Made by a program: the position numbers and the translations under genes. From Proteinivorax tanatarense (lineage in GTDB: Bacteria > Bacillota > Proteinivoracia > Proteinivoracales > Proteinivoracaceae), in NCBI RefSeq assembly GCF_040267685.1, contig NZ_CP158367.1, forward strand, positions 1,054,001 to 1,118,000: 64,000 bases of DNA. The letters are read 5' to 3'. Positions within the stretch are counted from its first letter, which is position 1. Every line of letters starts with the position of its first letter. The notes beneath the pieces were generated by a model that was given only the letters and a program-made list of their open reading frames with translations, searched no databases and had not been told where the DNA came from. Positions 36,208 to 55,144 of this stretch are shown in pieces.

Positions 36208-36285
36208 AGGTAAATATTATTGACAATATTTAGTTAAAGAAGTATCATAATATAAGAAATATGTCTAAATTTTACTATAAATAGC

Positions 36286-36454
36286 AAATATTTAAGGTTC
36301 AATTAATCTTGAATTAAAAGGGAAAACGGTGCAAGTCCGTTACAGCCCCCGCTACTGTAATTAGTGATATTTACAGCAATACGCCACTGGCAAGAGCTGG
36401 GAAGGCCGTTGTAAATAGGTGATCTATAAGTCAGGAGACCTGCCTTAAATATTT
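36286..36454 (+). ncRNA. Cobalamin riboswitch
   Basis: The element has the whole set of cobalamin (B12) riboswitch landmarks in order: CGGTGCAAGTCCG, ACAGCCCCCGCTACTGTAA, GCCACTG with GGGAAGGC, and AGTCAGGAGACCTGCC. AAATATTTAAGG (36286-36297) pairs perfectly over 12 bases with CCTTAAATATTT (36443-36454) to close the structure. It lies about 175 bases before a methyltransferase gene and an Opp/Nik-type ABC transporter. Binding of a cobalamin should switch the operon off, here most likely through the terminator that follows. Confidence 0.95.
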
Positions 36455-36461
36455 TATCTTA

Positions 36462-50812: not shown

Positions 50813-53191
50813 GTGGAAGATAGATTTTGTTTAGCGGCCGAACAGTTAACAAGACATTGTGACATTGAAGAGATTTACTTCGACAATACAGAACAAATAG
50901 AACATCTGAGTAGAATTATTGGGCAGGATAGGGCGATAGAGGCGTTAACTTTTGGGCTTAGCATAGAGAGAAAGGGATATAACATTTTCATATCAGGAAT
51001 TAGTGGCACAGGAAAATCTAGCTATGCTAACTATATAGCTAAATCCTTTGCTGAAAACAGGAAAAAACCTGAGGATTGGCTTTACGTTTTTAACTTTAGT
51101 AACCCTGATACTCCTAAGGCTATTAAAACTAGAGGAGGTCAAGGAGAGAACTTTGTTAAAGAGATAGACTATCTAATTAAAAAACTAAAAAAAGAGATAC
51201 CGAAAGCTTTTCAAAATAATGAATACAAAAACAAAAAAAAAGAAATTTTTAAAGATACTCAACGAAAACAAAAGGTATTTGCCAAAAATTTAAATGAAGT
51301 AGCTAGAAAATATGGTTTTATTTTTAAAGATACAGAACAAGGGTTTTGCCATATACCACTTAAGGATGGAAAGCCTATAAGCCAGGAGAATTATAATAAT
51401 TTATCTCCAGAGGAACTTGAAGAAGTAAAAATTAATTCGCAAAAGTTAGAGATGATAACTGAAGATTGGTTTGATGAGTTAAAAGAGTTACAGGAAGAAC
51501 TGGAAGAAAAGCTTGACAACTTAGATAAAGAGCAGGGTGAAAAGCTAGTTGCTTATTATGTAAAAAAGATAGCAAACAATTTCGGCGATAACAAAGCTAT
51601 AGAGGTATTCTTAAAAGATTTAAAGGAAGATCTTATTGTAAACATCAAACGTTTTGCAAGAACACATGAGTCGGAAGGTAAAAGTGAGGCACTGCTGCCT
51701 TTTTTACAAAGTCAAACTGGAGAAGAATTTTTTAATAGATATAAAGTCAATCTTCTAGTAAATAACAAAGAAAATAAGTATGCACCCATTGTTAGCGAAA
51801 ACAATCCAAATTTTCACAACTTAAATGGAACTGTGGAATATAGAAATGAGATGGGAATGTTAAAAACAGATTTTACTCAAATAAAACCGGGGACTTTTCA
51901 TTTAGCAAATGGAGGGTATCTAATAATACAAGCAAAAGATTTATTAGTTCAACCTTTTGCTTGGGATATTTTAAAGCGAACATTAAAAACTGGTATTATT
52001 ACTGTAGAGGACTTGGGTAAACAACTGGGGTATATGTATACAACTACTTTAAAACCAGAACCGATACCAGTAGATTTGAAGGTTATTTTGATTGGAGATG
52101 AACATTTATACCAATTGCTATATCAATATGATGAAGATTTTAGAAAGCTATTTAAGATAAAGGCTGACTTTGATATGGAAATGGAGAGATCTATACAAAA
52201 TATAGCCAAGATGGGACAATTTATAGTTAGTCATTGTAAGCAGATATGTTTAAAGACTTTTGATAAAAGTGCGGTGGCTAGAGTTATAGAATATAGCTCA
52301 CGAATATGTAATAGCCAAGAAAAGTTAAGTTCTCAATTTAGTAAAATAGTGGAGATTTTATATGAGGCCGATGGTTGGGCTGAGATTGAAAAGTCTGAGT
52401 GGGTATCTAGAGGTCATGTAGAAAAAGCCATCGAAAAAAAAATATACCGAAATTCTAAATATGAAGAAAAAATTGATGAACGATTTGAAAATGGGGCCAT
52501 ACTGATTGAAGTTAGTGGTAATCAAGTAGGGCAAATAAATGGCCTTACCGTTATGGGCACGGGACAAAGCTTGTTTGGGAAGCCTTGTAGAATAACAGTT
52601 AACACATATAAGGGAAAGCCGGGGATAATAAGCATCCAAAGAGAAACTAAAAATAGTGGGAGTATTTATGAAAAAGGTGTGTTAACCTTAAGTGGTTATC
52701 TAGGTGGAAAATATGCACAGAATAAACCGATGTCGTTGTCTGTAAGTATAAGCTTTGAACAAAATTATTCTATAATAGACGGGGATAGTGCATCTAGCAC
52801 TGAACTTTATGGTATTTTATCCAGCATAGCGGAGGTTCCTTTAAAGCAAAATATTGCTGTTACAGGCTCGGTAAATCAAAAGGGAGAGATTCAGCCAGTA
52901 GGAGGAGTAAACGAAAAAATAGAAGGCTTTTATGAGATTTGTAAACTTAAAGGTCTAACTGGTGATCAAGGTGTAATAATACCTAAGCAAAATGTGAAAA
53001 ACTTAATGCTAAAAGAAGAAGTAATAAAAGCAGTAAAAACTAGAAATTTTTTTATATATGCTATAAATCACGTGGATGAAGGAATAGAAATATTAACAGA
53101 TTTACCAGCAGGGGAAAAAGATAAAAACGGAAACTACCCCAAAGGAACCTTCAATGCTCGGGTTATTGAGAAGTTGGAAAAGTCTGAGTAA
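50813..53191 (+). CDS. Lon-family ATP-dependent protease (AAA_32/LonB-like)
   Basis: The 792-residue protein joins an AAA+ ATPase to a Lon-type serine protease. Walker A is SGISGTGKSS near 61-70. A long helical insertion (about 120-300) follows, then the second part of the ATPase, with EMGMLKTDFTQIKPGTFHLANGGYLI and the segment IPVDLKVILIGD. The protease domain (about 565-760) has the catalytic dyad S659 in GDSASS and K702 in GGVNEKIEG. It lacks the N-terminal Lon substrate domain, so it is the YcbZ/AAA_32 type. It starts with GTG after GGGGGTAGAG. The role is protein quality control or regulated proteolysis. Confidence 0.9.
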   Translation: MEDRFCLAAEQLTRHCDIEEIYFDNTEQIEHLSRIIGQDRAIEALTFGLSIERKGYNIFISGISGTGKSSYANYIAKSFAENRKKPEDWLYVFNFSNPDTPKAIKTRGGQGENFVKEIDYLIKKLKKEIPKAFQNNEYKNKKKEIFKDTQRKQKVFAKNLNEVARKYGFIFKDTEQGFCHIPLKDGKPISQENYNNLSPEELEEVKINSQKLEMITEDWFDELKELQEELEEKLDNLDKEQGEKLVAYYVKKIANNFGDNKAIEVFLKDLKEDLIVNIKRFARTHESEGKSEALLPFLQSQTGEEFFNRYKVNLLVNNKENKYAPIVSENNPNFHNLNGTVEYRNEMGMLKTDFTQIKPGTFHLANGGYLIIQAKDLLVQPFAWDILKRTLKTGIITVEDLGKQLGYMYTTTLKPEPIPVDLKVILIGDEHLYQLLYQYDEDFRKLFKIKADFDMEMERSIQNIAKMGQFIVSHCKQICLKTFDKSAVARVIEYSSRICNSQEKLSSQFSKIVEILYEADGWAEIEKSEWVSRGHVEKAIEKKIYRNSKYEEKIDERFENGAILIEVSGNQVGQINGLTVMGTGQSLFGKPCRITVNTYKGKPGIISIQRETKNSGSIYEKGVLTLSGYLGGKYAQNKPMSLSVSISFEQNYSIIDGDSASSTELYGILSSIAEVPLKQNIAVTGSVNQKGEIQPVGGVNEKIEGFYEICKLKGLTGDQGVIIPKQNVKNLMLKEEVIKAVKTRNFFIYAINHVDEGIEILTDLPAGEKDKNGNYPKGTFNARVIEKLEKSE

Positions 53192-53292
53192 AAATCGAAG
53201 AAGGAGTGTAAAAAGTAATAAGAGTTTTACAATTTACAATTAAGAGCAGTTTGACACTTCTCTTTTGAATGAGGTTTTTAAAAAGACCCAAT

Positions 53293-53352
53293 GGGTCAGA
53301 GTGCTCAAAAGTGCTTAGATTCTAGGCGCAGAAAAAGTCCAGGCCCGCAGCG
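53293..53352 (+). repeat. Structured repeat, copy A (5' part only)
   Basis: It contains GGGTCAGAGTGCTCAAAAG, GATTCTAGGCGC and AGTCCAGGCCCGCAGCG, then diverges. The closing half of the stem and the GCAACAACGAAGG tail seen in copies B and C are missing. Confidence 0.6.
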
Positions 53353-53560
53353 GTTCTTTTAAATATCTGGGGATAGGATGAAAGAAAAAGGGAATTTACA
53401 ATTTACAATGGACAACTGTTTTAAAAAGGCAGAGTTCAAAAACGAATTTACAATTTACAATGGACAATTGACAATTAAGGGCACTCTGTTCAGTCAGGAC
53501 ATAGGTAACAAATTTACAACGACCATTGTTTTGAATGAGGTTTTAAAAAAGACTCAAACT

Positions 53561-53669
53561 GGGTCAGAGTGCTCAAAAGTGTTTAGATTCTAGGCGCAAA
53601 AAATAGTCCAGGCCCGCAGCGTATAATTTCATACGTGAGGAGTCTGGACTTTTTTTGCAACAACGAAGG
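53561..53669 (+). ncRNA. Structured repeat, copy B (complete), possible small RNA element
   Basis: GATTCTAGGCGC is followed by a stem AGTCCAG/CTGGACT, an inner CGTAT/ATACG hairpin with CGTGAGGA after it, and the tail GCAACAACGAAGG. A short G-rich hairpin (GACTC/GGGTC) precedes it. Confidence 0.5.
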
Positions 53670-53683
53670 AGGGTGGGGGCTTT

Positions 53684-53800
53684 TTCAGACCAAAACTGGC
53701 CAGATTGCTTAGAAGTGCTCAGATTCTAGGCGCCCGACACTCAGAATACCTGAGCGTATCAACACGTGAGGAGATTCTGAGTGTTGGGCAACAACGAAGG
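53684..53800 (+). ncRNA. Structured repeat, copy C (complete), possible small RNA element
   Basis: It has the same flanks, GATTCTAGGCGC and GCAACAACGAAGG, and the same ACGTGAGGAG core as copy B. The outer stem is different and longer: GCCCGACACTCAGAAT pairs with ATTCTGAGTGTTGGGC over 16 pairs, including one wobble. Conserved ends with a different but fully paired stem indicate selection on structure. Confidence 0.55.
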
Positions 53801-53824
53801 TGAGTGCTTATAAGCTGTCTGGGG

Positions 53825-55144
53825 TTATTTTCCTACTATGTTGGCGGAAGAGAAGCACACCATTGGTGAATATCCCATGTGATAGAAAATACTTCTCATA
53901 ACCTCATATTTAGTTCCGACAGCTTCAATATTTTTGAAGAGGTCATAAATGTTTCCGGCAATCATGCTGCCTTTGACTTGACCTACTAATTTACCATCTT
54001 CAATTAAATAACCAGAAGATATATTCATTGAAAACTCTCCTTGGTTGATATTACCGGTATGAGCTCCCATTACGCCTGTTATAAACAGGCCTCTTTTTAT
54101 GCCTTTTATTATTTCTTTGTCGTCTTTGTGGTTTCCTTCTATTACAATGTTTGTGTCAAAAACCGCTGGTTTATCTTCGATTTCTTTAGAGAAAAGTGTA
54201 CGTTTAAAGGCATTTCCTGTAGGGTCTTTGTCTAGTTTTTTAGACTGGCTTATGCCTACTAGGTAGTTTTTGAGTACACCTTTATCGTATAGCATAGTAT
54301 TTTGAGAGGGGGTACCTTCATCGTCAAATAGGCATGTGTTAACGCCAAAAGGCATTTTGCCGTCATCTCTTATGGTAATGTTTTTGGAAAAAAGCTGTTG
54401 GCCTACTTTATTTTTAAGTGGTGAGATGTCTTTTACAACATTTCCTCCGTTAACACCTCCTAGAACTCTTAGCATAAGAGATCCCATAACTTTTCCTGTA
54501 AAAATAACCGGCATTTTTTCGTTATCTAAAGTTATTGGATTGCTACTGAGGCGATGCATTTTAATAAGATCTTGAATATCTTCAGTGTTAACTTGAGGGA
54601 TTTTTCCAGTGGAAAATTCTTTGGAGGCACCGGCAAAGCCTTTGTCAGTAATTGTACTTAAGGATAGTGAAAGGTTTGTATATTCATAGCATTTATCAAA
54701 ACCAGAGCTGTTTAAAATATGAACCTTTCTGTAGCTTCTTGTTGCGTTTACTCCAAAATTAATGTCATCCGCAGCATCTTTTAATCTTTTTGATTGTTCA
54801 AAAGCAAAGTCTGTAAGCTTTTTTGTGTCCATGTTTTTAATTTCTTCCGACCAAGATATAACATCAGCTGCGTTTTCTTTATTAGGAAAAACTATAGCCT
54901 CTGATTTTTGGTTTTTAAGGGCTATGACTGCTCTGTCTATAATAGTTTCATCGTCTAAAGAAGTGGCTACAGCTGTTCCCATATTGCCATCTTTTACAAT
55001 CCTTAAAGAGATTTCCGTTTTTTTCTTAGAGTTGACTTCTTTAAGCTCATCTAGTTTTATATTAACGGAATTACTGGAGATTTCCCTAACATATACCTCC
55101 GCTTGTTCTGCTACTTCTAATGCTTTACTCAATAATTTTTTCAT
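53825..55144 (-). CDS. pmbA: PmbA/TldE-family protein
   Basis: This 439-residue protein is the inactive-partner half of the TldD/TldE (PmbA) complex, a metalloprotease assembly that trims small peptides, including microcins and unfolded peptide chains. The family regions LKNQKSEAIVFPNKENAADV, GGVNGGNVVKDISPLKNKVGQQLF and the GVMGAHTGNINQGEFSMNISSGYLIEDGK segment (read in pieces) are present. There is no HExxxH motif, as expected for this subunit. It follows tldD by one base on the same strand, so the two are an operon. GGAGGGAAGTAAC precedes the ATG. Confidence 0.92.
   Translation of the reverse strand: MKKLLSKALEVAEQAEVYVREISSNSVNIKLDELKEVNSKKKTEISLRIVKDGNMGTAVATSLDDETIIDRAVIALKNQKSEAIVFPNKENAADVISWSEEIKNMDTKKLTDFAFEQSKRLKDAADDINFGVNATRSYRKVHILNSSGFDKCYEYTNLSLSLSTITDKGFAGASKEFSTGKIPQVNTEDIQDLIKMHRLSSNPITLDNEKMPVIFTGKVMGSLMLRVLGGVNGGNVVKDISPLKNKVGQQLFSKNITIRDDGKMPFGVNTCLFDDEGTPSQNTMLYDKGVLKNYLVGISQSKKLDKDPTGNAFKRTLFSKEIEDKPAVFDTNIVIEGNHKDDKEIIKGIKRGLFITGVMGAHTGNINQGEFSMNISSGYLIEDGKLVGQVKGSMIAGNIYDLFKNIEAVGTKYEVMRSIFYHMGYSPMVCFSSANIVGK

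Follow-up and report, generated by a model that had tools for sequence, protein, structure and literature searches.

The space between two convergent genes of Proteinivorax tanatarense holds several similar copies of a foldable sequence, raising the question of what this element is, and whether it is kept as an RNA or spreads as a mobile hairpin. The window (the whole stretch of 64,000 nucleotides that was analysed, G000:C1:1054001-1118000) belongs to a genome of 3.09 Mb, referred to below as G000. An earlier note, made from the letters of the window, had described three copies of a structured element of no recognised family, with compensating changes in the stems.

Element copies between two convergent genes

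Copies A, B and C were all located where the earlier note had placed them, and the motifs shared by them are far beyond chance: GATTCTAGGCGC occurs exactly three times and CGTGAGG..GCAACAACG twice, versus none of either in 100 shuffles. The fold z-scores relative to shuffled sequences are -6.5 for copy B and -7.1 for copy C. The full element, an imperfect palindrome of ~125 bp that is dispersed in intergenic regions, turned out to be longer than first noted, its outer stem (P1) enclosing a conserved internal loop. On the plus strand P1 leads via this internal loop (..TTC-TAGGCGC / GCAACAACG-AA..) to an inner stem (P2) whose sequence is free; beyond P2 come a second internal loop (GGAG / UGAG) and the short stem of the apex. 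The features of the locus, with the small leader hairpins read directly from the sequence, are as follows.

50813..53191, plus strand: convergent gene for what is presumably a Lon-like AAA+ protease, ending ~100 nt before copy A
53285..53297, plus strand: small leader hairpin GACCCAATGGGTC before copy A, its end bases common with P1
53295..53352, plus strand: copy A, a 5' half (P1 5' arm, loop GATTCTAGGCGC, P2 5' arm and the beginning of the apical module)
53551..53565, plus strand: small leader hairpin GACTCAAACTGGGTC before copy B, with one U.G pair
53563..53668, plus strand: copy B (P1 5' arm, both loops, P2 and apical module, without the P1 3' arm), 77.7 bits
53688..53701, plus strand: small leader hairpin GACCAAAACTGGCC before copy C, with one A x C mismatch
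53699..53822, plus strand: copy C, the complete element, 126 bits with covariance model R1
53700-53721, copy C: P1 5' arm
53722-53731, copy C: loop GATTCTAGGC
53732-53747, copy C: P2 5' arm
53748-53773, copy C: apical module
53774-53789, copy C: P2 3' arm
53790-53800, copy C: loop AACAACGAAGG
53801-53822, copy C: P1 3' arm
53825..55144, minus strand: gene that we take to be pmbA/tldE-like, its stop codon 2 nt from the 3' edge of copy C

While the description of copy A as a 5' half was borne out, the claim that B and C have different but fully paired outer stems has to be modified. The stems do differ, but the differing one is the inner P2; the outer P1 (CCAGATTGCTTAgAAGTGCTCA / TGAGTGCTTaTAAGCTGTCTGG) is complete in C only, its 3' half being absent from B. 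Nor is the P2 of B related to that of C by point changes in place: P2 together with the apex behaves like a module that can be exchanged among subfamilies. The paired change ascribed to the hairpin in front of each copy holds only in part, since this hairpin is perfect in A but has the U.G pair in B and the mismatch in C.

Several other repeats were noticed in this genome. A separate family of degenerate tandem-like repeats, AATTTACAATTTACAATGGACAATTGACAATTAAG, lies between the hairpin copies (53217-53249, 53386-53418 and 53438-53474) and also near other copies in G000 and in its congener G001 (e.g. beside L022 and L026), and CATCCTGAGCTTGCCGAAGGATCTAGCCCACAAGGGCGCAGGACC is a third dispersed repeat in G000 (L039, L042, L037 and others), often near hairpin copies. 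A further family is made up of clusters in which two units of ~100 nt alternate at intervals of ~170-350 bp; it is present in G001 and has many members in G000 (clusters at about 1681.5-1685.8, 1877-1879.6, 1937.8-1938.8 and 945.2-946.3 kb of G000:C1, and at L121 405-760). Elsewhere in the window, a cobalamin riboswitch was recognised at 36278-36461 with 131 bits.

Spread and conservation of the fold

Searching G000 by BLAST and by R1, a covariance model built on 12 copies from this genome, revealed ~25 distinct sites (the list has 38 matches, some of which are one near-palindromic site read on both strands); there are 34 sites in G001 and ~20 in G002, a member of the same family. At E<=1e-4, R1 matched 19 of 398 genomes from the phylum, in a patchy manner and in many families. 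A second model, R2, trained on 33 diverse copies, none of them from another phylum, gave matches outside the phylum in a Bdellovibrionales MAG (up to 100 bits), a deltaproteobacterial MAG and a Burkholderiales MAG, as well as in 98 of the 321 genomes from the class to which a Luteimonas genome belongs, the Gammaproteobacteria. Gammaproteobacterial members read, for example, GCAAGGCAAAA..GCGGAGCATACATGAAGTATGTGAGCATTTTGAG..TTTTAACGCCGCA, and their copy numbers are lower bounds since scoring covered just the 8-10 best candidates of each genome. An exact-pattern scan of genome contigs produced 12 hits that seemed chance-like at first, of which those in Bdellovibrionales proved to be true members. 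The model search that the earlier note had suggested thus found relatives in several phyla. Rfam, searched at the gathering threshold and at E<=1, gave no match at the element except for a chance snoRNA hit; the element has no counterpart among the Rfam families, but it is not without known kin, as a distant relation to ERIC is probable (see below).

Throughout this range the loop motifs persist across phyla, while the stem sequence varies with pairing kept. Conservation at unpaired positions is seen for (T/A)AGGCG, AACnACGnAG and GGAG..GUGAGGA. Judging from the letters, both internal loops could contain sheared G.A pairs in tandem, an arrangement known from RNA as well as from single-stranded DNA. 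P2 falls into classes that include CCGACACTCAGAAT, AAAAAAtCCCAGG, GAAAcTGCcCCAACACC and AATTGATGgACCAG. The element ends are similar within one genus (CCAGACnGC/GCnGTCTGG); across species they change wholly yet stay paired, with the inner loops unchanged.

The substitution covariation became clear once relatives were added to the window copies. RNAalifold found double changes in 21 of 45 pairs among the 12 copies from G000. In two larger alignments, both fitted to the structure, so that the covariation numbers are somewhat inflated, 85.4% (A4) and 88.2% (A5) of cells were paired, with 343 and 685 double-change cells as compared to 102 and 219 in shuffles, a level reached by 0 of 500 shuffles in either case. 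Slid controls gave 79-107 double-change cells for A4 and 157-189 for A5, and shifting the partner by 1-3 columns reduced pairing to 35-42%. Covariation above both kinds of control on two alignments, with loop motifs kept across phyla, upholds the proposal of a structure under selection, as an RNA or as a mobile hairpin, and sets the element apart from random dispersed repeats devoid of covariation.

The two strands are not equivalent. With each copy's strand assigned by a model trained on the plus strand, this strand folded better than its complement in 81 of 89 copies of a first set and in 41 of 44 copies of a second, mostly proteobacterial set using RNA energies, and in 124 of all 133 using DNA parameters. 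Within the plus-strand fold, G.U pairs outnumber A.C oppositions by 65:3 in the inner P1 and by 39:1 in the apical stem; in P2 the ratio (29:18) is not significant. Such an asymmetry speaks for one folded strand rather than a cruciform, and against correction of one arm by the other as the sole force.

Position at stop codons and history of the sites

A convergent ORF has its stop codon no more than 20 nt from the 3' edge in 47 of 89 copies of the first set and in 19 of 44 of the second, versus 9 of 89 and 9 of 44 for the 5' edge and 7.9% for random places; these stop distances refer to ORFs rather than curated genes, and copies of one genome do not count as independent. The stop codon itself is often supplied by the element edge (CAGCTTA-TAA, GGCTGC-TGA, GACTGT-TGA). 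A 3' edge placed at the stop of a gene reading inward means that the transcript of this gene would enter the reverse complement of the element. The downstream ORF is antisense to the element in 75 of 89 copies and sense in 11; in 43 of 89 both neighbouring ORFs are antisense, and hence no neighbour transcript carries the plus strand. The position bias could also be explained by selection after random insertion. Replication-strand targeting was considered and rejected: the orientation in G001 differs between chromosome halves; the copies in the window, however, are oriented with respect to the adjacent gene, and gene direction accounts for more than replication strand does.

The end of the pmbA-like gene carries a single intact B-type element in G001; in G000 the place at the stop is taken by a C-type element, followed by B without its 3' arm and by A without its 3' half. 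Partial copies in 1.6 Mb of G001 are mostly 3'-truncated (32 vs 8), comprising 22 with the 5' part only and 10 with the 5' part and apex, as opposed to 5 with the 3' part only and 3 with apex and 3' part. At the alignable orthologous gene ends that were looked at, the element is present in both G000 and G001, the adjoining DNA being 76-96% identical between the two species. For two such pairs (L045/L119 and L054/L125), identity is 83-97% in the P1 arms and loops, as compared to 47-54% in P2 and the apex, which belong to different classes; this switch reflects either an exchanged module or more than one insertion at the same spot.

Among the alignable G000/G001 pairs examined, neither a clean empty site nor a target duplication was seen, and movement is thus inferred rather than demonstrated. 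The candidate empty sites were rejected as a breakpoint (L047), as a place occupied by a degenerate element in G000 (L121) or for having no orthologue across the site (L126). The presence of TA at junctions is not constant, and the ends are not fixed by a clean empty site.

Probable relation to ERIC and proposed mode of spread

ERIC repeats, which occur in enterobacteria and Vibrio, have been known since 1990-91. Like the element, ERIC (IRU, RU-1) is a long imperfect hairpin of ~125 bp that is multicopy and intergenic, and the two have in common, in register in model R3, an apex of the form GGAGC-stem-loop-stem-GUGA and the loop AAGGCG / ACGCAG; outside the loops and apex the sequences are unrelated. 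R3 was built on 47 members with E. coli ERIC left out, and yet three distinct E. coli ERIC copies (cusC, ybhI, pgk-fbaA) scored 22.9-23.5 bits in register, with E about 1e-4 in 16 kb with filters off (a rough value, as the calibration was short) and a next best match at 10.5 bits. The models trained further away gave one of these copies 13.3 (R1) and 16.6 bits (R2), the score rising towards R3 because proteobacterial members enter the model. In two of the three ERIC copies that were read, cusC and ybhI, the 3' edge is 9-14 nt away from the stop of a convergent gene. We consider it likely that ERIC is related to the element family, a judgement drawn from little more shared sequence than the loops and apex, and ERIC is probably an outlying member. 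The literature describes it from gammaproteobacteria as MITE-like, with its mode of mobilisation an open question and with TA at its ends (PMC2229807); no constant TA was seen at the junctions of the element. Fusions of RU-1 to gene 3' ends have been reported (PMC2759123). The Rfam family V_AS5 (Vibrio antisense RNA AS5), which gave no match to the window copies up to E = 1, matched an E. coli ERIC copy (L098 359-478) at 44.5 bits, with a threshold of 96; this family may have been built on ERIC copies.

Other known systems are less close. Multicopy sequences of Geobacter may resemble the element. They form dispersed palindromic families in many intergenic regions, and the relevant passages of their description draw no link to ERIC (PMC2996986). 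A literature search by motif letters, covering open-licence papers, returned only ERIC primers or unrelated primers; an earlier description elsewhere is possible. The attC sites of integrons act as a folded single strand with free stem sequence, fixed unpaired bases and polarised arrays; the element would work alike in principle but is not classed among them. REP/BIME repeats (GTAG and CGTC) are hairpins of 20-40 bp with a tag tetranucleotide, lying mostly downstream of genes (PMC3733652). The element shares with them the position 3' of genes and, with the RAYT model, a strand-specific hairpin, but has ~125 bp, two internal loops and no GTAG/CGTC tag at its base. RAYT genes are as a rule not flanked by the element (it is present in 2 of 20 RAYT regions), and Y1_Tnp/RAYT was not found in the carriers G295, G336, G536 and G004. 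With no consistent association, RAYT was rejected as a general mover. Near-identical Y1/RAYT proteins of 333 aa are encoded at G000:C1:2307045-2307371 and G001:C1:2261077-2261406, with no element in the surrounding 6 kb. A SINE-like reverse transcription was likewise rejected, as G000 and G001 (both single-contig) yielded no reverse transcriptase and the truncation on the 3' side is opposite to that of target-primed reverse transcription.

The main rival to a mobile hairpin is a cis-acting RNA at gene ends, which would protect 3' ends, guide RNase processing or separate convergent transcription and would have spread slowly since ancient times. The same gene ends are occupied in two species with adjoining DNA of only 76-96% identity, the structure is kept and its placement behind stops is precise; moreover, Yersinia ERIC is reported to alter the stability of upstream mRNA in an orientation-dependent way (De Gregorio 2005 as cited in PMC2229807). 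However, the mRNA of the neighbouring gene carries the worse-folding minus strand with its A.C mismatches, both neighbouring ORFs are antisense in the 43 copies mentioned above, and the tandem and eroded arrays resemble insertions, all of which makes this explanation rather unlikely. A classical MITE moved by a DDE transposase via terminal inverted repeats would agree with the size, the inverted ends alike within one genus and the dispersed copies. It is still less probable: if the ends were recognised, one would predict the opposite of what is seen across species, where ends vary around constant inner loops; strand asymmetry and stop polarity would not be expected either, and no target duplication was seen. 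Templated repair of one arm by the other could mimic covariation in a neutral palindrome with no selection on the fold, and this would suit P2, which shows no preference for either strand and varies as a whole from one orthologous site to the other; but loops that are not complementary and conserved G.U pairs, both persistent across phyla, would be wiped out by such repair. As the sole cause such correction is largely refuted, and we give it very little credence.

The reading that we favour, at roughly even chances, is a mobile but non-autonomous hairpin that belongs to an ERIC-like superfamily and enters gene ends in a set orientation. The folded plus strand, as single-stranded DNA or RNA, would be recognised via its loops by a trans-acting enzyme that joins the hairpin behind stop codons in a fixed polarity. 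Newer copies would insert beside the stop, pushing older ones away and costing them their 3' arm; the order away from the pmbA-like gene would then read as C intact, followed by the truncated B and A. In addition, copies probably swap the P2-apex module among themselves, and effects on adjoining mRNA, as reported for ERIC, would be secondary. In its broadest form, as a pan-bacterial superfamily with ERIC as one branch, served by one undescribed enzyme system that acts on a folded single strand and inserts it at stops with fixed polarity, new copies adjoining the stop, the proposal is tentative and on the doubtful side of possible.

If ERIC is indeed one branch, the loops, the favoured strand and the stop polarity would strongly constrain the mechanism of ERIC, and the family would be traceable by covariance models from a Clostridia-like genome through Bdellovibrionales to proteobacteria. 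Co-occurrence screens for the mobilising enzyme would become possible, and many unannotated intergenic regions could be labelled.
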